The position numbers and the translations under genes were made by a program. The notes below the pieces were generated by a model that did not search any database, had not been told where the DNA came from, and saw only the letters and a program-made list of their open reading frames with translations. From a virus, in IMG/VR virus record IMGVR_UViG_3300013126_000079, positions 1 through 40,924 of that record: a stretch of 40,924 bases of DNA; one strand, 5' to 3'. Shown here piece by piece: positions 8,903 through 33,184 of this stretch; position 1 is the first letter of the stretch, and each line of letters begins with the position of its first letter.

Positions 8903-9340
8903 ATGGCTGACGTAACTACAGCTTTGCTTAACAATGTAAACCCTACTACAACAGGGACGTTTTATTCTCGTGGGTTCTCGACAAGAGACCTGCGAGATAT
9001 TTCGTTTTTTCTTTTAATGCCATCAACAACTGGCACGGTTAGTACGCTTGATGTTTCAGTAGAAGAATACGACACAATAGATGCAAATGGTGATCCTGCT
9101 GATGCACATAGAGTTAGAACTTTAACTTTATTTACTCCAGCTAATCCAACAAGCTCTTCTGTTACAGCGTTTACTCAAGTAGTAGCAGGTACATCTTCCC
9201 CTAATGCGACACTACAACAAAAATTAAACGTTAGAGATAACAACCTTAATAAATTTATTCGTGTAAAATATGTAATAGCAGGCACGGCAACGCACTTTAC
9301 TAACATTAGCGTAGTCATGGCGGCAAACCAGAAAGTGTGA
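8903..9340 (+). CDS. Putative head accessory protein, 145 aa
   Basis: A beta-rich, Thr/Ser/Val-rich protein of structural-protein composition (many SVTAFTQV- and GTVSTLDV-type strands). It starts 2 bases after the preceding gene and overlaps the portal start by 4 bases, so all three are coupled. Likely a decoration or head-stabilising protein; no named family recognised. Confidence 0.55.
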   Translation: MADVTTALLNNVNPTTTGTFYSRGFSTRDLRDISFFLLMPSTTGTVSTLDVSVEEYDTIDANGDPADAHRVRTLTLFTPANPTSSSVTAFTQVVAGTSSPNATLQQKLNVRDNNLNKFIRVKYVIAGTATHFTNISVVMAANQKV

Positions 9341-11607
9341 AGAAACTAGATATAAACGAAATATCAGATACACAATTAGAGGCTTTTTCTAGTCATATTA
9401 ATATCTTAATTAATTCGGTTAAAAACAATAACGATTTTTATACCTCAAGAGCAGTAATAGATAAAGTCATATTACAAGACGAAGATGTAGACTTATCAGA
9501 TCGCAACAGTGTAGCGTATCAAAGAATTAACAATGATAATTTAATTGAAAGGGTAGTTGAAGAAGATGATGTTGATGAGTTTTCCACATTAAAAGACCCT
9601 ATCCTCTATAGAATTTACCGGACTTGGGTAAACAATATTAAAAATGCTTGCTTCCCAACAAGTGGTGATTATGTAGATATTAATAGAAATTTCAGCTCCG
9701 AGTTTTATAAAATGGGATTAAAGAAATTTTTACCTCAAGTTAATCAAGCTTGGATTAACGTAATCAAAACAGAAAACCAGAGGTTTAATTTTAAAAAGAA
9801 ATATTCAGCAGCAATAGCCGAATTAGTAGCTTATGGGAATACTGGTATTGTTCATTATTTTGACCCGATAGATAATATTGTTAATATTAAAACTCCAGGT
9901 ATTGGCAGATTTAGTATTTATCCGATGACTGATAATTGGAGAGAATCCAATTTAATTCTTGAATATGATATAAATTATAGTGATTTATTAAACAGACAGG
10001 ATTTAAACCCAGAGCTGGTCGAAGCAATCAAGCCAGTATTAAATTATGACGATTTAGGGGATAATGAGTTTATAGGGTCTACTTCTCGTTTAGCTGATGT
10101 GGCAAATCGAGCACCTTACGGACAAGTTCGCTGTTATGATTTATTTTTACCGAGTGTTTATCTAGAAGATAGAGAAGATCGTAAAAATCCAATAACGGCA
10201 AAAGGCGTTTATATCACGGCAATTCAAGCACCTGAAACGGTAGAGGGTACTGATTTAGAGGCTTTTGGATTTAAAGATAATTTAGTTATTTTAGCGGCAT
10301 ACCAAGATGCAAGCCCTTATGACCACGGGATATGTTTAGCAGCAGCAGGGACTACTTTACCTGGTGTGTTTTATCATCAAGGTTTTATTAGACCTTTTTT
10401 ATCACACCAATTACTTTTAAATCAGTTAATTTCGGGAACATCAAGAGTAGTAGGTTTACTTTGTGATCCACCTTTAAATTTGATTCGTAATCAAGATTAT
10501 GATTTTGACAATAGAACAGAAATCCCAGAATTTGAACCAGGTGCAATGTATGAAGGATTTGATGTTAAGGCTTTAGTACCTCCAGAATATAATCAAGTTG
10601 TATCTCAATATGGTGCATTAACTCAAATAATCACAAATACAGTAGAACAAAGCTCAGGCTTAAGCAAGGCTCAAATGTCAGGAGTTACTTCTTCAAGAAC
10701 CTCGGCAAGTGAAATTAAGGAAGTAGTATCAAGTGGACAACTGAACATAGTTGATGCCTCTAATCAATTTGATGAAGAAATTTTACAACCATCTATTAGC
10801 AATAGGATTATATTAACCCAACAGTTTTTAAGGGAAATAGTCAAAGATTTAAAAGAGCCTGCTATGCGTGAAGCAATGCTTTTAGATAGTCCATTGTTTG
10901 AGCGTTTATTGAATTACTCAGGAATTGAGGAAATGTATGAGCAGTTTTATCAAGAAAATCAAAACGAATTAGATCAAAACGCTGAAATCTTAGATACGAT
11001 AGAAGGGCTGTTTGCAGAGATCGGACAACTTCAAGAATATGCGGCATCTCCAATTAAAGATTTTGTGCCACCAGATGTAACTATTAATCCAGAGACTTTA
11101 GAGGAAACTCCTAATGCAGCAGAGATAGAGCAACTTAAAATGCAGCATGAGCAAAACGAGAAAGCTCAAAGAGACCAAGCACTTAAAGATGTAAAGTTAA
11201 AGCAAAAAGAGATAGAACGCAAGCAGAAAGAAATTAGCAGAAATGTTCAAGAGATCCCTGAACCGTCACTTGATTTATATTATCAATTACTTTCTTATCC
11301 AATTAAAGAATCTGATGTTCAAATCACAGGCTCTAAAACAACATTAAGTAAAGAATATGCAAGACAAAACTTAAAAGAATTTGTAGGATTTTTACAGGCA
11401 GCACCAGAGGTTTTAGCTGAATATGACATGGGTGCAGTCGTGGAATATTTTTCAAGAACTTTATCTATCCCACTAAGTAAGCTCAAGAAAGACGAAGCAG
11501 AAAAAAGGCGAGACGAGGCGGCTAGACAGCAACAGGCAGAATTTGAACAGCAATTGCAATTACAGTATGCTAAAAATCCTGGAGCTCAACCACCTAAATT
11601 TAATTAG
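9337..11607 (+). CDS. Portal (head-tail connector) protein
   Basis: The 12-mer ring at the DNA-entry vertex. Called from size (756 aa, in the range of podovirus portals), position between terminase and scaffold/capsid, and composition. There is a mixed alpha/beta core with YNDVV-like clip and stem segments around residues 380-470 (PPLNLIRNQD, LSKAQMSGVTSSRTSASE). A long Gln/Glu/Lys-rich helical C-terminus from about 590 to 756 probably forms the barrel. Translation begins at GTG (9337) inside the preceding gene. The stretch at 430-460, with an EQSSGLSKAQMSG segment, resembles the portal wing/stem of related phages. Confidence 0.8.
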   Translation: MKKLDINEISDTQLEAFSSHINILINSVKNNNDFYTSRAVIDKVILQDEDVDLSDRNSVAYQRINNDNLIERVVEEDDVDEFSTLKDPILYRIYRTWVNNIKNACFPTSGDYVDINRNFSSEFYKMGLKKFLPQVNQAWINVIKTENQRFNFKKKYSAAIAELVAYGNTGIVHYFDPIDNIVNIKTPGIGRFSIYPMTDNWRESNLILEYDINYSDLLNRQDLNPELVEAIKPVLNYDDLGDNEFIGSTSRLADVANRAPYGQVRCYDLFLPSVYLEDREDRKNPITAKGVYITAIQAPETVEGTDLEAFGFKDNLVILAAYQDASPYDHGICLAAAGTTLPGVFYHQGFIRPFLSHQLLLNQLISGTSRVVGLLCDPPLNLIRNQDYDFDNRTEIPEFEPGAMYEGFDVKALVPPEYNQVVSQYGALTQIITNTVEQSSGLSKAQMSGVTSSRTSASEIKEVVSSGQLNIVDASNQFDEEILQPSISNRIILTQQFLREIVKDLKEPAMREAMLLDSPLFERLLNYSGIEEMYEQFYQENQNELDQNAEILDTIEGLFAEIGQLQEYAASPIKDFVPPDVTINPETLEETPNAAEIEQLKMQHEQNEKAQRDQALKDVKLKQKEIERKQKEISRNVQEIPEPSLDLYYQLLSYPIKESDVQITGSKTTLSKEYARQNLKEFVGFLQAAPEVLAEYDMGAVVEYFSRTLSIPLSKLKKDEAEKRRDEAARQQQAEFEQQLQLQYAKNPGAQPPKFN

Positions 11608-12695: not shown

Positions 12696-13931
12696 ATGGT
12701 AAACCCAATCAATAGTGTTCTTTCAATTAATGATGCAAGAACGTACATGGAAGATGTCCAATCGGACATTATTAAAACCTCTGGGGTTAGAGCACCTTTC
12801 TTGATGACTCACATGAGAACTGTAAGCAAGATGGGTTCAAAAGTTCAATGGTTTCAACAAGCAATTTCAAGAGGTGTTTTAACTCTAGCTGGTTCTTACT
12901 CGGCAGGTAATACTACACTTACGGTATCAGCTCCAACAAGAGCTAACCCATTTGATACAGAAATTAAACCAGGTGTAACTAGATTAGTTAATCAATCTGG
13001 TTCTGCAAAGTGGTTAGTAACTGGTGTTAATGGTGCTTTCACAAGTTTAAATATCCAATTATTGAGCGGATATTCAGACCCTAGCACTTTGGCTATTGGT
13101 ACTCAATTGTTTACCGATAGATCAGGTGAAATTGGTGATGGTTTTGGAGCTAACAATGATACTGCTCTTGCAGGTTCAGATTTTAATTTCTATTCAAACT
13201 TTTTCCATGACATTCAGATTGCAGGGCCAGTAGCGAATGGTAAATTTAATTTCGCTGGTATTAATGAATTAGATTTTGGCAACCAAGAAGAAAATTTACT
13301 TCCGACGATAATTCGTATGCTTGAAAGAAAAGCATTGAAAGATATTCGTTTAGAAGGTTCTAATCCATTAACAGCAGATGGCTTTACTAGGACTTCTGGT
13401 ATTGGTGCTCAAGCTGGTGGCGTTAAGTTTTACATTGAGAATGGTGGTGGATATGTCGTTACTGGTGGTAGTGCAAGTTTAACGGAAGCAACTGTTGAGG
13501 CAGATGTAATTGCTTTAAGAGATCGTGGAGCTTTACAAGGTCCTAAAGTTTTTACGAGACCTACTGATTTAACTAATATTGATATGTATGTTTCAGAAAA
13601 TGGTTTATCCGCTCTTCAATCACAAATTAGATTCCAAAGAGAAAACGCACAAAATGCAGATGGTGGCTTAGGTTCATCTCAAGCGTACCATATGCTTGTT
13701 AATGGCTGTAAGCTCAATGCGATAGTTTCTGATGGCGTTGGTGATAATGAAGTATTCTATTTACCACAAGTACACGAAAACATAATCGTTAATGTAATGA
13801 GAATGTTTGAAAAAGTTGGTAGTCCATTTGAGGATGGTGACGGAATTAAACAGAAATACGGTACTACATTTACTGCTTGCGTAAAAGCTCCGTGGACTTT
13901 AGGTTACAGAAATAACTTAATAGTTATCTAA
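12696..13931 (+). CDS. Major capsid protein
   Basis: The shell-forming protein, assigned from its position (scaffold before, hairpin after), its strong leader and its 411-residue length. The sequence fits an HK97-fold coat of the SU10-like (DUF5309) type: an N-terminal arm (SINDARTYMEDVQSDIIKTS), a Gly/Thr-rich insertion at about 65-140, a helix-rich P-domain near 195-230 (EENLLPTIIRMLERKALKDI) and an A-domain with GGG loops at about 245-330. The family assignment is tentative; the capsid call is not. It ends one base before a strong RNA hairpin. Confidence 0.85.
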   Translation: MVNPINSVLSINDARTYMEDVQSDIIKTSGVRAPFLMTHMRTVSKMGSKVQWFQQAISRGVLTLAGSYSAGNTTLTVSAPTRANPFDTEIKPGVTRLVNQSGSAKWLVTGVNGAFTSLNIQLLSGYSDPSTLAIGTQLFTDRSGEIGDGFGANNDTALAGSDFNFYSNFFHDIQIAGPVANGKFNFAGINELDFGNQEENLLPTIIRMLERKALKDIRLEGSNPLTADGFTRTSGIGAQAGGVKFYIENGGGYVVTGGSASLTEATVEADVIALRDRGALQGPKVFTRPTDLTNIDMYVSENGLSALQSQIRFQRENAQNADGGLGSSQAYHMLVNGCKLNAIVSDGVGDNEVFYLPQVHENIIVNVMRMFEKVGSPFEDGDGIKQKYGTTFTACVKAPWTLGYRNNLIVI

Positions 13932-26853: not shown

Positions 26854-27174
26854 ATGAGCGGCATTAATCCTAGAGGAACAACAGGAACACCAGTAGCGAT
26901 ACTTGGGGGAACGGCACATTCGATAAACTTTACTGGTACAAGTGCAATAAATTCAATAGCATTTAACGCAAATACAAGAATTTTAGCAGGGATGGTAGCA
27001 ACTCAACCATGTTTTATTAGGGCAGGTGATAGTACCGTAGTAGCTACTACAGCAGATACTTATTTAGCAGCAGGTACGGTTTATAGTTTTGGCATAAATT
27101 CCAATGTCACAAACATAGCTGTAATTCAAGAAACCACTGGTGGTACATTGAGATTTTTTGAATCAACACCTTAA
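26854..27174 (+). CDS. Small beta-rich virion-type protein, 106 aa
   Basis: Gly/Thr/Ile/Ala-rich with strands such as HSINFTGTSAINSIAFNANT and VTNIAVIQETTGGTLRFFES. Composition and length match small decoration or fibre-associated proteins of phage structural regions. It ends tail-to-tail with the sigma factor gene, overlapping by 12 bases, and no terminator lies between them. Confidence 0.55.
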   Translation: MSGINPRGTTGTPVAILGGTAHSINFTGTSAINSIAFNANTRILAGMVATQPCFIRAGDSTVVATTADTYLAAGTVYSFGINSNVTNIAVIQETTGGTLRFFESTP

Positions 27175-27927
27175 CGCCTCATAATCTCCACGCAGTGACT
27201 CTTTCAAAAAATCTAAATTGCGATTAATGATTTTACTCAACTCAAAATAGGTTAAGTTGTAAAGTTTAGATAATTCAGTTTTATTCATTTCTTGGTTTAA
27301 AAAACTTAACATTATTGCTTGTTCATTAGCAGGAATTTGTGATAAAAAATAATTTACATTATCAGCAAGATCATCATAATCTCTATGAAGATCAGGGATA
27401 CTTTCCTTCAAGGGTTCAGATTCCCCTATGGGTACATCAATAGATTCTATAAGTTGGCTAGAGTAAGCTTGATATAATTTATCAAATTGTTTTTTAGAAA
27501 GCTTAAGTTTCTCTCTAATGATTTCTAATGGTTCTATGTTTAAAAGACTATGCAATTCTTGAATAGCATAATATTTTAAAACAGGAATTTTAATAGTAGA
27601 TGATGATTGCATGAATTTTTGGATGCGTTGATTAATCCACTGCCCAGCGTAAGTGCTAAATCGATACCCTAAACTTGCATCAAACTTTTCAGCAGCACGC
27701 CTTAAACCTGTTACCGCTTCTGAAATTAAATCTTCTAGTTCATAACCTCTATCTACAAAACGATTCGCAATATGCCTAGCCAATCTAAGGTTATGATAAA
27801 TTAAAATTTTTTCGTAATCAATTCTTGATAATTCGGAACGAGCGAGCCATAAATTTAATTCTTTTTCTTCTGCTTCTTTAAGTACAGGAATTTTTTTTAT
27901 CTTATTTAAAAGATCAGATAAGCTCAT
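27163..27927 (-). CDS. Phage-encoded sigma-70-family factor
   Basis: Directs host RNA polymerase to particular promoters. Region 2 is clear at residues 43-110: LRLARHIANRFVDRGYELED and LISEAVTGLRRAAEKFDASL, then a region-2.4-like segment, GYRFSTYAGQWINQRIQKF. Region 3 is short (110-170). Region 4 at 195-245 (ANEQAIMLSFLNQEMNKTEL, then a helix-turn-helix ending in KESLRG) is more diverged. It lacks region 1.1, so it resembles group 3/4 or phage sigma. It lies on the opposite strand to the late genes it may control. A TATAAT box 6 nt before the ATG suggests a leaderless mRNA made by the housekeeping polymerase. Confidence 0.8.
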   Translation of the reverse strand: MSLSDLLNKIKKIPVLKEAEEKELNLWLARSELSRIDYEKILIYHNLRLARHIANRFVDRGYELEDLISEAVTGLRRAAEKFDASLGYRFSTYAGQWINQRIQKFMQSSSTIKIPVLKYYAIQELHSLLNIEPLEIIREKLKLSKKQFDKLYQAYSSQLIESIDVPIGESEPLKESIPDLHRDYDDLADNVNYFLSQIPANEQAIMLSFLNQEMNKTELSKLYNLTYFELSKIINRNLDFLKESLRGDYEALRC

Positions 27928-28474: not shown

Positions 28475-28569
28475 CAACCTTTAGTTCTAATCTTAACTCC
28501 ACCTTTTTTGGGTGCAGGTTTATCAGTCTTTTTTGGTAATCCTTTAGTATAACCGTTTGATTTTTTCAT
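28471..28569 (-). CDS. 32-aa basic peptide
   Basis: Minus-strand reading frame, MKKSNGYTKGLPKKTDKPAP then KKGGVKIRTKGC, strongly basic. It overlaps the preceding gene's end and the promoter region of the following gene. GGAAG lies about 12 nt upstream. Small Lys/Gly/Arg peptides of this type are often seen in phage structural blocks, but this one is only weakly supported. Confidence 0.35.
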   Translation of the reverse strand: MKKSNGYTKGLPKKTDKPAPKKGGVKIRTKGC

Positions 28570-28589
28570 GATTTTAATTATCTTCCATC

Positions 28590-28617
28590 TTGCTTTTCAA
28601 GTCAATAAGCATATAAT
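28590..28617 (+). promoter_or_regulatory. Sigma-70-type promoter of the 143-aa gene
   Basis: TTGCTT (28590-28595), a 16-bp spacer and TATAAT (28612-28617). The best housekeeping-type promoter in the window. The ATG at 28625 is 7 nt after the -10 box, so the message would start at or within a base or two of the start codon. Confidence 0.65.
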
Positions 28618-28624
28618 AGTTTAC

Positions 28625-29056
28625 ATGAATTTACCTTTGCAGGATTTGGGAACGAAAAGAAAAAAGAAATATTCAGAAGAATTTTATTACGCTTTAATCG
28701 AGGAAACCAAAAAACGATACGGAGATTCGATCTTCAGGGAATTACCTGATTTGTTCTTGAGCATGTGTGAAGCTCTAAATGATGATTCTATCCCTCGAAA
28801 TTGGGATCATTTGGTCTCTAATAAACGAAATTCAAGACAAGCTCAAACTAAGGCTTTAACTGAAATTTATCAGGCTAGAGGCAATGAGCCTATAGCAATG
28901 CAAGAAATTCAAAGATTAATGAAAGAAAAATTCCCTGAAATTACGGCTGCCTCTATCGTGGGGATTAATCAAATTTTAAAAGGTTACGGGCTTTGTGAAT
29001 TAGTTAAGAAAGGTGGTACTGTTACGATTTGGCGTGGAAAATTTGGAAATAGATAA
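28625..29056 (+). CDS. Unknown solitary protein, 143 aa
   Basis: The start is placed at ATG 28625 and not at the upstream ATG 28568, because the earlier start would put a perfect promoter inside the gene. The protein begins MNLPLQDLGTKRKKKYSEEF and is helical in its first 70 residues. The second part (about 80-140: KALTEIYQARGNEPIAMQEI, then TVTIWRGKFG) looks like a winged-helix DNA-binding domain. It could be a transcription regulator. It has its own promoter and a strong terminator at 29148, as expected of a moron gene. No Shine-Dalgarno. Confidence 0.6.
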   Translation: MNLPLQDLGTKRKKKYSEEFYYALIEETKKRYGDSIFRELPDLFLSMCEALNDDSIPRNWDHLVSNKRNSRQAQTKALTEIYQARGNEPIAMQEIQRLMKEKFPEITAASIVGINQILKGYGLCELVKKGGTVTIWRGKFGNR

Positions 29057-29147: not shown

Positions 29148-29187
29148 GCCCTCAAGTTTTTAATTTTTCTCTTGAGGGCTTTTTTTT
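29148..29187 (+). terminator. Rho-independent terminator
   Basis: Stem GCCCTCAAG (29148-29156) pairs with CTTGAGGGC (29171-29179), and eight T follow. It ends the rightward transcription of the 143-aa gene. The transposon inserted two bases after its T-run (target copy at 29189-29196), so the terminator itself is intact. Confidence 0.9.
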
Positions 29188-29188
29188 A

Positions 29189-29196
29189 ATCTTTTT
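29189..29196. repeat. Left target-site duplication ATCTTTTT
   Basis: Identical to 32583-32590, directly outside the two terminal inverted repeats. An 8-bp duplication is the established hallmark of the IS1595 family. Confidence 0.9.
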
Positions 29197-29220
29197 CGGA
29201 ATCATCCCTTGGCGTAGGAA
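29197..29220. repeat. Left terminal inverted repeat, 24 bp
   Basis: Starts CGGAATCATCCCTTG and ends CGTAGGAA. It differs from the right repeat by one base at position 16 (G here, A there). Confidence 0.9.
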
Positions 29221-29248
29221 TTTATAGTATTATGAAATTATGGTGCTC

Positions 29249-31600
29249 TTATTTATCTACCCAAAGACGATTGAGACTTTTATTTACATTTTCTTTAATA
29301 TTAATAATTTCTTGTTCTTTTTCAATAATTTCTTTATCTTTTTCCCCTAATTCTTCTATTAATTTAATTTGTTCTTTAACAGGGGGAACTGGTATTTTTA
29401 AAAATAGATAATTGTCCAAATCCAAATGCTTTACATTCGTTCCAGTAGAAAAACGCCTTGCTTCTTTTAAAAATGATTCTGCGTGAAATATTATATGTAG
29501 ATATTGTTTAAGTACGGAATTGCTAATAACATTAATTTTTGCTAAATCCATAGAAAATGCACCTTCTTCTTTTACTATTATACTTCTAGCAATAATCTCA
29601 GACGTTGGCGTTAAATCTGTTATGGCTACAAGTAAATCTCCTTCTTTTACCATGTAGCGATCTTTTATTTCTGTATCTTTTTTAATGTATTTAAAACTTG
29701 GCACGTACTTATATCCTTTTTGTATAGATTTTAGGTTGTACATTGGAATACCAAAATCAATAGGGCTTAAATAAACACTTTTGTATGAAAAGCCACGAGT
29801 TAATTTAATTAAGTCTCCAAGTTCTACAAAATTAAGATCACACTCAGAATCCCTGTTTTGATAAAAAGAGTTAATCAATGTAAACCCTTTACGTTTTATT
29901 TCGGCTCTAGGGATAATATCAAAACCACCAATTAAATTAACGTGTTCTTCGTTTGTAATTGAGCATTTAGATTCAAAATCCTTAATATCGCTTTTAATTT
30001 CTGTTAATTTAATTCTTTTACTATCTAAGGAATAGCCATCATTAATTACTTCAAAGAAAAATACATTATTGGGTTTAACTGGTTTATGAACATTTTTACA
30101 ATACATAATGTTAGTTTTAACTCCTGTGTACGGTAAAAATACACCATGTGGCAGTGATACAATTGTTTGAACATCGCAATTATCAAAAAGCCATTCTCTA
30201 GTTTTTTTCAAATCTTTTCTAAACATAAAACCTTCTGGAACAACTAAAGCCATTCTTCCACCTTTTTTTAAAGCATTAATGCAATGTTGAACACAAATAC
30301 TATCACCATTATTATTAGGGATTGGGTATCTTTGCCCATATTCAGTTTGTTGGGAATATGGAATATTACTTATAATTGCATCATATTCGCCATGTTTTTT
30401 TGATACTTTGTCTGGGTTTAGACTGTCGGTCTGCGTAATATTACTATGACCATCACCCGATAAGATCATGTTCATTTTTGCTATTCTGGCTGTATTTGTT
30501 ATTTCACTGCCATAAATACTATACTTTTTAAGCCTCTTTAAATGTTCTGGGTCATTCAGCTCAGATTTAGACATATTATCGTAAATATGCTTAAACGCTT
30601 GTATTAACATTCCACCAGTACCACAAAAAGGATCATATACAGTTTCACCAAATTGAGGGTTAATTAAGCACGTCATAGTCTTGACAATATGTCTAGGTGT
30701 GAAATACTCACCTAAATCATTTTTAGTTGAGGTTGTAGCTTTTAAAAAATGTTCAAAAGAATCACCTTTTACATCCATGTTAATTGCAGTGAGAATTAAT
30801 GGGTCTAATTTATCTACAATACTTCTAACAATTTTTCCATTGTTAATTCCTAGCTCTTTAGGTAAAACGCTATTTTCTCCATATAATTTATTTAGTTTGG
30901 GCAATACAACCTTATTGAGGTTTTCTAACAATTCATCATTATCTTTAATTTCTCTAAAATTACTCCATCTAGCAAACTTTGGTATTTCTGATTTAAAACC
31001 TTGTTCGTCTTTCAAAGCTTCAATGTCTGACAATAATTTCAAAAACAATAGATTGGAAAATTCGTTAAATCTTTCTATGCCTGCCCTCAAGCCAACTTTC
31101 CTTAAATCATCATTTGCTTCAGTAAAAATATTAATTAAATCTACTCTAGATATTTGAACTTCTCTTGGAACAGTAGAGACTTCATGCTTGTCTAAATATT
31201 GAAGAGCTAAGGACTCTCTGATAAGTTCGTCTAACTCTTCACCATTAAGTAATAATGCTTGATTAGTTTTTTGATGGATTGTTTTGTAAAATACTCCATC
31301 TGTTGCAAAAACAATAGGGCTATTAAGTTTTTTTGCGTAACCAAGTCCTTGTTCTAAAGCTTCGTTTAAATCCCTACCTGGTCTTTTAGCTTCTATTATT
31401 GCTATTGGGTGGTTTAAATCCCTCTCGCTTGAATACAGTATGTAATCTGGATGCTTGCCTTGTAGCTTCTTGTTCTCTGTTTCACTTCTAGGATTTTCAA
31501 AGTAAACATTCCTACCCCCCCCATGTAAATACCAGTTAAGAGATTCAAGCTTTTTATCAATTATGTATCGTGTATCTGCTTCTACTGGTGCTTTAGCCAT
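29249..31600 (-). CDS. Single-chain restriction-modification protein (R-M-S fusion)
   Basis: One polypeptide with three parts. Residues 1-130 are an HsdR-N nuclease domain with a PD-(D/E)xK site (D52, then E70 and K72 in AIIEAK). Residues 150-540 are an HsdM-type N6-adenine methylase with motif I DPFCGTGGM (323-331) and motif IV NIPY (412-415). About 600-783 is one HsdS-type recognition domain plus one connecting helix. There is no SF2 helicase/translocase, unlike type I enzymes; the plan is nearer type IIG. The start MAKAPVEAD (31600) is preferred over the longer frame at 31648 because a TACAAT box lies 6 nt before it. Confidence 0.85.
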   Translation of the reverse strand: MAKAPVEADTRYIIDKKLESLNWYLHGGGRNVYFENPRSETENKKLQGKHPDYILYSSERDLNHPIAIIEAKRPGRDLNEALEQGLGYAKKLNSPIVFATDGVFYKTIHQKTNQALLLNGEELDELIRESLALQYLDKHEVSTVPREVQISRVDLINIFTEANDDLRKVGLRAGIERFNEFSNLLFLKLLSDIEALKDEQGFKSEIPKFARWSNFREIKDNDELLENLNKVVLPKLNKLYGENSVLPKELGINNGKIVRSIVDKLDPLILTAINMDVKGDSFEHFLKATTSTKNDLGEYFTPRHIVKTMTCLINPQFGETVYDPFCGTGGMLIQAFKHIYDNMSKSELNDPEHLKRLKKYSIYGSEITNTARIAKMNMILSGDGHSNITQTDSLNPDKVSKKHGEYDAIISNIPYSQQTEYGQRYPIPNNNGDSICVQHCINALKKGGRMALVVPEGFMFRKDLKKTREWLFDNCDVQTIVSLPHGVFLPYTGVKTNIMYCKNVHKPVKPNNVFFFEVINDGYSLDSKRIKLTEIKSDIKDFESKCSITNEEHVNLIGGFDIIPRAEIKRKGFTLINSFYQNRDSECDLNFVELGDLIKLTRGFSYKSVYLSPIDFGIPMYNLKSIQKGYKYVPSFKYIKKDTEIKDRYMVKEGDLLVAITDLTPTSEIIARSIIVKEEGAFSMDLAKINVISNSVLKQYLHIIFHAESFLKEARRFSTGTNVKHLDLDNYLFLKIPVPPVKEQIKLIEELGEKDKEIIEKEQEIINIKENVNKSLNRLWVDK

Positions 31601-31606
31601 AAACAA

Positions 31607-31612
31607 ATTGTA
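31607..31612 (-). promoter_or_regulatory. -10 box (TACAAT) of the R-M-S gene
   Basis: TACAAT, one base off the consensus, ends 6 nt before the ATG at 31600, with no Shine-Dalgarno in between and no good -35. It supports the shorter start and a leaderless message. The lysis operon upstream on the same strand may also read into the gene. Confidence 0.35.
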
Positions 31613-31622
31613 CTTTATTACT

Positions 31623-32534
31623 TCAAGGAATGATACTTTGCTTAGCAACTAATCCAAACATATCCTTAGACTCTCTATTGTTCCATCTAAAAGCAAACTC
31701 ATTTACGTAAAGCTGTAAATATTTTGTACTTACATGATGATATATACCTATTATACCTCTCTTTAATACGCTCCAGAAGGATTCTATAGAATTTGTGTGG
31801 ATACTACCTACCGCATATTCTTTGCTGTGATCTACTCTTTCATGGTTGTAACCATTTTTAGATACTTGACTGTAACCAGTAAACTCATCAGAGTAAATAG
31901 TGCTTTCAGCTTCTACAGTCTCTTTAATGAAAGCTATAAGCTGTTTACCTGAAAGCTTTTTACCCTCTTCATTCATAGTAGCTACTTTAGCAACTACCTT
32001 GTTTAAAGCTCTATTAACAATACCTATAACTGGAGTTTTATTAGTTCCTCTGCCTCTTAATCCACCTTGTGGCTTATCATTGTCATCATCTTTCTTGGAT
32101 TGCTTTCTAGGCTTACCACCTACATAAGTCTCATCTATTTCCGATATTTCTCTGAAAAGCTCTAAGTCTTCATTGCTCATAGCTTCCCTGATCTTCTTAA
32201 GCATTCTCCATGCTGTTTTATAAGTTACTTTAATTTCTCTCTGTAACTGGTATCCAGATATTCCTTTCTTTGAGTTAAGCATTAAATGGATAGCGTAAAA
32301 CCATTTTCTTAAGTCTGTATCAGACTTTTCAAAGATTGTGTCTTTGAATATTGAAAACGTATTAAAACAGTTCTTACAGTTAAATATCTTAGGATATTTA
32401 GGCTCTCTGTAAATCTTGTATTTAACAGCTCCACAATGAGGGCAAGTAACTCCATCTGGATACCTAACTCCAATAAAGTATTCAATTACTGAAAGCTCTG
32501 TAGGGAATTTTTCAAAAAAGCTAAATACGTCCAT
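31623..32534 (-). CDS. IS1595-family transposase
   Basis: A 303-residue enzyme with a zinc ribbon at the N-terminus (C31, C34, C53, C56 in CPHCG and CKNC). A helix-turn-helix follows (about 90-120), then an ISXO2-like DDE-type RNase-H domain. The acidic residues are D134 (EIDETYVGGK), D216 (YSDEFTGY) and N248 or E251 (NSIESFW), as is usual for this family. It cuts and joins at the 24-bp ends. It appears intact. It starts at the ATG 24 nt inside the right repeat, and its stop lies 22 bases before the start of the passenger gene. Confidence 0.9.
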   Translation of the reverse strand: MDVFSFFEKFPTELSVIEYFIGVRYPDGVTCPHCGAVKYKIYREPKYPKIFNCKNCFNTFSIFKDTIFEKSDTDLRKWFYAIHLMLNSKKGISGYQLQREIKVTYKTAWRMLKKIREAMSNEDLELFREISEIDETYVGGKPRKQSKKDDDNDKPQGGLRGRGTNKTPVIGIVNRALNKVVAKVATMNEEGKKLSGKQLIAFIKETVEAESTIYSDEFTGYSQVSKNGYNHERVDHSKEYAVGSIHTNSIESFWSVLKRGIIGIYHHVSTKYLQLYVNEFAFRWNNRESKDMFGLVAKQSIIP

Positions 32535-32558
32535 GTATTTAATATTAGCTAATATTTT

Positions 32559-32582
32559 TTCCTACGTCAAGGGATGATTCCG
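32559..32582. repeat. Right terminal inverted repeat, 24 bp
   Basis: Inverse of the left repeat with one mismatch. It contains the TAG (32562-32564) now ending the small membrane gene that was hit. Confidence 0.9.
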
Positions 32583-32717
32583 ATCTTTTTTAAGCCAAGA
32601 TCCTAATAGCCCTAATAGCGTAACCGCAAGAGCGGTAAAGAAGGATGGTACAAAAAAACCATGAAGTCCAAAAAAACAAAAAGAAAAACTAAGAATATAA
32701 AAGAAAAGGTATTTCAT
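32562..32717 (-). CDS. Small holin-like membrane protein with transposon-derived tail
   Basis: The 51-residue protein has a signal-like hydrophobic N-terminus (MKYLFFYILSFSFCFFGLHG), a second hydrophobic helix (PSFFTALAVTLLGLLGSW) and a positive end (LKKD). This is a typical two-span small holin or lysis membrane protein, directly after an endolysin gene (ATGA overlap). The last six residues (RNHPLT) and the stop come from the transposon's inverted repeat. Without the insertion the next codon was TAA. The gene thus probably still works. Holin role is inferred from build and neighbour, not shown. Confidence 0.65.
   Translation of the reverse strand: MKYLFFYILSFSFCFFGLHGFFVPSFFTALAVTLLGLLGSWLKKDRNHPLT
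32583..32590. repeat. Right target-site duplication ATCTTTTT
   Basis: Second copy of the 8-bp target. It lies in the 3' end of the holin-like gene, covering codons for KKD. Confidence 0.9.
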
Positions 32718-33184
32718 TTTTTAAAAACCAATGGAGTATATTTCTTTCCATCAAAAATCAATGGCTGCTTTCTATTCAGCTTCAAATCTTTTTTACAAGA
32801 AACATGCACCCATCCTGAGCGTGGGTCTTTCGGGTTATAAAATTCTAAGATCAACTGGTCATAACTAGGGCATATCTCGTTAATGATCTCAGCTAGTCTG
32901 TAATTTGATACAGAATGATGTTCCATATCCACTGCTTCACCTTTTATGTGTTGAGAGTCCTTGGAGCCACCTACTGCAAAGTTAAGTGCAGGTGATCTGT
33001 ACCAGCTTTGCGGCTCAAGAGCAGAGCCTAGAAATTCTCTTACGGGGTCAAGAATGTTTAAGGCTAGAGCTTTTGCGTTATCGACTACCTCTTTAGGTGG
33101 AGTGTTAGGAATTTTATTTCTGATAGCAAAAGCTGATTTCCCAATTTCTGAATACCAAAAATATTTAGAGATTCTATATTGCAT
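32714..33184 (-). CDS. M15-family endolysin (peptidase)
   Basis: Zinc peptidase of 156 residues that cuts peptide cross-bridges in peptidoglycan. Ligands fit H79 and D86 in SQHIKGEAVDM and H127 in WVHVSC, the order of the M15A/M15_3 group. The central SWYRSPALNFAVGG segment is also typical. No signal peptide, so it would need a holin, and a small membrane gene follows in an ATGA overlap. It probably works together with the GH24 lysozyme at 35931. A TAAAAT box 6 nt before the ATG is its likely -10. Confidence 0.85.
   Translation of the reverse strand: MQYRISKYFWYSEIGKSAFAIRNKIPNTPPKEVVDNAKALALNILDPVREFLGSALEPQSWYRSPALNFAVGGSKDSQHIKGEAVDMEHHSVSNYRLAEIINEICPSYDQLILEFYNPKDPRSGWVHVSCKKDLKLNRKQPLIFDGKKYTPLVFKK

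Follow-up and report, generated by a model that had tools for sequence, protein, structure and literature searches.

The window, i.e., the whole stretch of 40,924 nucleotides that was analyzed, is a phage record in IMG/VR with terminase, tail, and lysis genes. Between its endolysin gene and a second phage gene (orf162) lies a DNA element with two minus-strand genes, which encode a transposase and a one-chain nuclease–methylase–specificity protein (hereafter RMS), and both reading frames are intact (Table 1). The 24-bp ends of the element are complementary at 23 of 24 positions, the sole mismatch being TTGGC in the distal end versus TTGAC in the transposase-proximal end, and when the 10-kb region was simulated 20 times with a Markov model, no inverted 24-bp pair matched at ≥ 22/24 positions. 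A record-wide scan found a single copy of the element in the phage, and an exact-end scan of IMG/VR gave no match to its end elsewhere. The results indicated that 29197–32582 is an intact IS1595-family unit of the passenger-carrying (tIS) type, i.e., a passenger gene and one transposase are enclosed by a single pair of ends. A composite transposon was rejected, because there is one transposase with one pair of short ends and there are no two flanking IS copies.

Table 1. Features of the element and of its phage surroundings (window coordinates).
Feature	Position	Strand	Basis
Second flanking phage gene, orf162, function not assigned	28568..29056	+	homologues in relatives
Terminator-like hairpin and T tract, GCCCTCAAG...CTTGAGGGC TTTTTTTT, just left of the insertion	29148..29187	+	sequence; loop exceeded the scanner's range
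Target-site duplication, left, ATCTTTTT	29189..29196	.	sequence; 8/8 score
Whole IS1595-family element with cargo (3386 bp)	29197..32582	.	23/24 ends and exact 8-bp duplication
Terminal inverted repeat, distal, CGGAATCATCCCTTGGCGTAGGAA	29197..29220	+	sequence
One-chain R-M-S enzyme, 783 aa from ATG	29249..31600	-	profile matches, alignments, structure model
Single TRD and C-terminal helix (specificity part), about residues 585–783	29252..29848	-	PF01420, structure model
Gamma-class adenine methylase domain, about residues 160–560	29921..31123	-	PF02384, alignments, Foldseek
R domain, about residues 1–125, PD-ExK P51 D52 ... E70 x K72	31226..31600	-	alignments
IS1595 transposase, 303 aa, zinc ribbon and DDE domain	31623..32534	-	profile matches
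Promoter-like site TTGACG-17-TAATAT, -35 hexamer inside the inverted repeat	32542..32570	-	9/12, consensus match only
Terminal inverted repeat, transposase-proximal, CGGAATCATCCCTTGACGTAGGAA	32559..32582	-	sequence
Target-site duplication, right, ATCTTTTT	32583..32590	.	sequence; 8/8 score
Flanking phage endolysin (Peptidase_M15_3)	32714..33184	-	PF08291; phrog_894 endolysin 7e-30

The transposase matches the IS1595 model NF033547 at 2.3e-65 (220 bits against a cut-off of 75) as well as PF12762 and PF12760, each above its cut-off, and residues D134, D216, E251, and K258 occupy conserved columns of the alignment. A DDE transposase with a zinc ribbon, inverted repeats, and an 8-bp duplication are thus all present, and on these sequence features the element is assigned to the IS1595 family.

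The RMS open reading frame has two candidate starts. The ATG at 31600, 22 bp past the transposase stop, is more likely than the upstream TTG at 31648, which overlaps the end of the transposase gene and would yield a 799-aa version. The N terminus resembles HSDR_N with a match of 3.5e-5, just under the Pfam gathering score, which several homologues exceed; the central part matches N6_Mtase (PF02384) at 3.2e-52; and a single Methylase_S stretch (PF01420) spans 606–782 of the 799 residues. The PD-ExK residues P51, D52, E70, and K72 and the key residues of the methylase are invariant in 16 aligned sequences. Methylase motif I reads DPFCGTGG, and motif IV reads NIPY; NPPY is more usual, but the alignment shows N-x-P-Y/F to be the rule for this family. 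The AlphaFold model (mean pLDDT 80.5) has a long helix at 741–782, and Foldseek matched it to type I M subunits (EcoKI M and its kin), the IIG enzyme BpuSI, and BsaXI. Pfam detected no helicase or translocase domain in RMS, and the element holds no other gene. Judged by its nuclease, methylase, and single-TRD domains, RMS is a one-chain Type IIG-like R-M enzyme with the layout of HaeIV, namely an N-terminal nuclease, a gamma methylase, and one TRD in a single chain without a translocase (PMC3874165, Table 4); the likeness to HaeIV and other single-chain Type IIG enzymes is one of domain layout, not of the HaeIV sequence. Enzymes of the HaeIV type are thought to dimerize when acting on a symmetric split target (PMC3874165), and by analogy RMS, with its single TRD, would act in the same way. 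Three other assignments were rejected: a Type I R-M system, which would need an SF2 helicase translocase and a separate HsdR, neither of which the element has; a Type IIG enzyme of the AloI type, which has two TRDs and about 1250 aa compared with one TRD and 783 aa here; and a MADS defense system, for which the MAD2 score was 116.5 bits against an NCBIfam cut-off of 720. An AloI-like layout was seen elsewhere, in a gut fragment (L092, 3871–6801) that encodes a 976-aa one-chain relative of RMS with what seems to be a second specificity domain.

The earlier note on this DNA had described a complete IS1595 element with 24-bp ends and an 8-bp duplication, which the end matches, the duplication, and the transposase family match confirm to the base, and a fused nuclease–methylase–specificity gene carried as cargo beside phage lysis genes, which the domain matches and the neighboring endolysin bear out. 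It had also regarded a translocase-less fusion of this kind, as cargo in a lytic-gene region of a phage, as uncommon; that the fusion is in itself unusual was not supported, since the layout is that of the HaeIV-type Type IIG enzymes. IS-free homologues of RMS are common in Acinetobacter prophages, where they reside in the lysogeny region; for instance, the N-6 DNA methylase of B1251-type phages (QKN84163.1 and its kin; about 760 aa) is homologous to RMS along the chain with 36–40% identity and, unlike RMS, is a resident prophage gene that adjoins the repressor without any transposon. Because such homologues are common and occur without an IS, the enzyme by itself is ordinary and does not depend on the transposon. 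Single-sequence scans of IMG/VR and GTDB contigs with RMS gave no matches, so that an alignment-based search was required, and a search at 1e-90 in 398 genomes of one phylum, in which just the best two candidates per genome were scored, yielded none and carries little weight.

The element was inserted between the terminator-like hairpin and the endolysin gene in the same orientation as the latter, and no gene was disrupted. In a related phage found via its endolysin (L288), the homologues of the endolysin and of orf162 are 367 bp apart with no element between them, which supports the insertion; by eye, this 367-bp gap contains terminator-like and tRNA-like stretches. Eleven structural relatives were recruited via the 411-aa product at 12696–13931; they share about 80% DNA identity with the window over the structural genes, and neither the transposase nor RMS was found in them, several of them being fragments. 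The earlier note would have been refuted by an R-M-S gene at the same locus in relatives that lack the transposase, and this was not the case: L288 has neither gene, and no structural relative has RMS. The existence of IS-free, resident R-M-S homologues in Acinetobacter prophages might suggest that RMS is likewise a resident phage gene, around or beside which the IS1595 ends and transposase landed. We consider this very unlikely, because a single pair of ends, with one exact target duplication, encloses both genes, because L288 has both flanking genes without RMS, and because 12 further IS1595 units carry R-M genes in a comparable place. As for the other contents of the window, no tRNA genes were found in it, the large connector-region protein at 9337–11607 had no match among named phages, and 27163–27927 encodes a phage sigma-70 region 2 protein that is 76–77% identical in the relatives.

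The further R-M-bearing units came to light in a survey in which IS1595 relatives were recruited from viral and bacterial contigs by their transposase and not by their cargo. Ends were called automatically; 78 elements passed the filter, and 70 were left after the removal of near-copies. The automated calling produced false pairs at some loci; counts were restricted to elements with motif-bearing ends. Most of the 70 elements carry cargo, and among 110 passenger ORFs the commonest cargo recognized by Pfam was DNA methylases. A nuclease together with a DNA methylase was found in 6 of the 70: a C5-MTase with NgoFVII (L005), an MTase-like protein counted as an N6-MTase (NPPF motif, no Pfam match) with a Type II REase detected by PADLOC (L006), an N4/N6-MTase with CfrBI (L120), and one-chain homologues of the window RMS (L021, L024, and L043). 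Outside the filter, three more elements carry R-M cargo, namely a C5-MTase with NgoBV and an 8/8 target duplication (L099), a 1050-aa one-chain IIG-like protein with ends but no duplication (L114), and a Type IIG-like protein larger than the window RMS in an element cut by the contig edge (L101). An enzyme-first search based on the alignment added L198, L200, and L275, giving 12 in total. A matching target duplication is absent in six of these (L024, L114, L120, L198, L200, and L275), so some of the related R-M elements may be immobile or rearranged, and that of L006 is an A8 run. Annotated plasmid elements near five hits (H91, H92, H93, H96, and H99) contained hypothetical genes and no R-M genes.

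Three IS1595 elements (L025, L029, and L122) carry a methylase with no recognized nuclease, and self-protective methylases are common among phages. Both facts would suit a reading in which the RMS nuclease is dead and the methylase alone is active, an orphan modification enzyme that shields the phage from a host nuclease; this seems improbable to us, since the nuclease-motif residues P, D, E, and K are intact in the window as well as invariant in the aligned sequences. A different question is whether the element is a transient hitchhiker that arrived by a chance jump, brings no benefit, and will be lost by the phage lineage. We regard this as possible, though we lean somewhat against it. The element is absent from all relatives examined, its intergenic position is harmless, its nearly identical ends and exact duplication point to recent insertion, and its GC content is 31.6%, compared with 35.1% in the rest; however, two R-M elements of the same clade (L005 and L006) adjoin terminase genes in other phage contigs. 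R-M elements of the window clade have thus entered at least three phage genomes, and their carriage by phages is not a single accident.

We also analyzed how the cargo is related to the elements that carry it. The tree of RMS enzymes has at least five changes in linkage to IS1595, and the transposase tree has at least nine changes of the R-M label. R-M systems are carried by 7 of the 18 members of the supported group to which the window transposase belongs. Within this clade, L005, L099, and L120 share with the window ends of the form CGGAACTATCCCTTG and cargo directly behind the transposase, but unlike the one-chain enzyme of the window they carry two-gene Type II systems (NgoFVII type in L005, CfrBI type in L120, and NgoBV type in L099). 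L005 and L120 are 88% identical over the end and transposase, show no similarity behind the transposase, and are again 92% identical over the last 59 bp, and their R-M systems are unrelated; L099 (83%) holds a third. Similarly, the transposase parts of the window and of L098, from a Cyanobacteriota MAG, share 80% identity, and the cargo of the two is unrelated; few close transposases were found in the phylum and class of the L098 genome. Because similar frames enclose unrelated R-M systems in L005 and L120, we infer that the cargo is swapped as a block and that the slot is exchangeable. At the level of sequence comparison, this shows that IS1595 elements have repeatedly acquired differing R-M systems in the same cargo position.

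The sole mismatch between the two ends of the window element falls in the −35-like box of the promoter-like site. TTGAC occurs in 43 of 58 proximal ends of related elements compared with 15 of 58 distal ends, and discordant pairs number 29 to 1, which supports selection for a putative promoter in the transposase-proximal end. With a little under even odds, we tentatively propose that minimal, self-mobile R-M transposons form a widespread class, in which a constant frame (a promoter-bearing end, a transposase, and a far end of about 60 bp) would surround a slot that exchanges whole, unrelated R-M systems, with phages as vehicles.

For the window itself, we put the probability at about 0.85 that the locus holds a tIS with a one-chain Type IIG-like enzyme of HaeIV layout, inserted between the phage endolysin and the downstream gene, whose slot is refilled by unrelated R-M systems. 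The observed basis of this explanation comprises the ends, the target duplication, the intact frames, the catalytic motifs, and the empty locus in L288. The transposase would move the whole unit, and both genes would be transcribed from the promoter with its −35 box in the proximal end, or else lysis-gene transcription would read through into them. The RMS dimer would methylate both halves of its split target and would cut unmethylated copies of that target. The module may in this way mark its carrier, whether phage or host, and penalize DNA lacking the mark or the loss of the element, and the cargo may serve in defense or self-marking. The cargo could instead be chiefly a selfish stabilizer, in that loss of the element exposes unmethylated DNA to the nuclease, with little to do with defense of the phage or host. 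This is conceivable, although we find it rather doubtful. In its favor, R-M systems are documented to kill post-segregationally, and IS-linked R-M inserts to be retained in an R-dependent manner (PMC3031569); the filling of one slot by unrelated R-M types also fits selection for the R-M principle as such and not for a single specificity. Against this, the nuclease and methylase of a one-chain enzyme would be diluted together, and killing should be weaker than with two-protein systems.

Cargo-carrying IS1595 elements (tIS) are known, as the earlier note had pointed out, e.g., the lincomycin-resistance element tISCpe8 (PMC5704250). Like the window element, tISCpe8 and MTnSag1/tISSag10 have a single IS1595 transposase and cargo in one pair of ends, but the described elements confer lincomycin resistance, are conjugatively mobilizable, and carry no R-M enzyme (PMC5704250 and general knowledge). 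IS-linked movement of R-M genes is likewise known, by composite transposons and by IS1/IS5 (PMC3031569); in contrast to the R-M genes of composite transposons, that of the window is enclosed by one transposase and one pair of ends without flanking IS copies. In the open literature, a scope that leaves out the subscription-only 2009 paper defining IS1595 and two further key papers, no report of recurrent R-M cargo in IS1595 was found. The enzyme layout and the tIS type being already known, what looks new is the recurrence of R-M systems as IS1595 cargo.

The horizontal spread of R-M genes is well known, and the vehicle is frequently obscure. A compact transposon whose slot takes up R-M systems again and again would be such a vehicle, and would explain the entry of R-M systems into phages and plasmids. 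The same transposase with different R-M cargo provides a natural series for testing whether such systems persist through defense or as selfish stabilizers, and, given their predicted activity, the IS1595 R-M elements would be small movable units that mark and cut DNA.

Other cargo was also observed in the survey. Three elements (L012, L015, and L023) encode a protein that by eye resembles PAPS reductase, and three (L017, L038, and L176) carry a trypsin-like protease, assigned by eye and by mutual similarity, with 3 of the 110 passenger ORFs matching Trypsin_2. A C-terminal tail, tDFxxxLxKAsqP, which has no Pfam match and is absent from the window RMS, is common to unrelated cargo proteins whose genes converge with the transposase gene, i.e., those of L021, L024, L043, L017, L038, and L176. 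In L061, L011, L014, and L062 this peptide is encoded by a free-standing 70-aa ORF, which in every case lies at the 3′ end of the transposase gene on the other strand.
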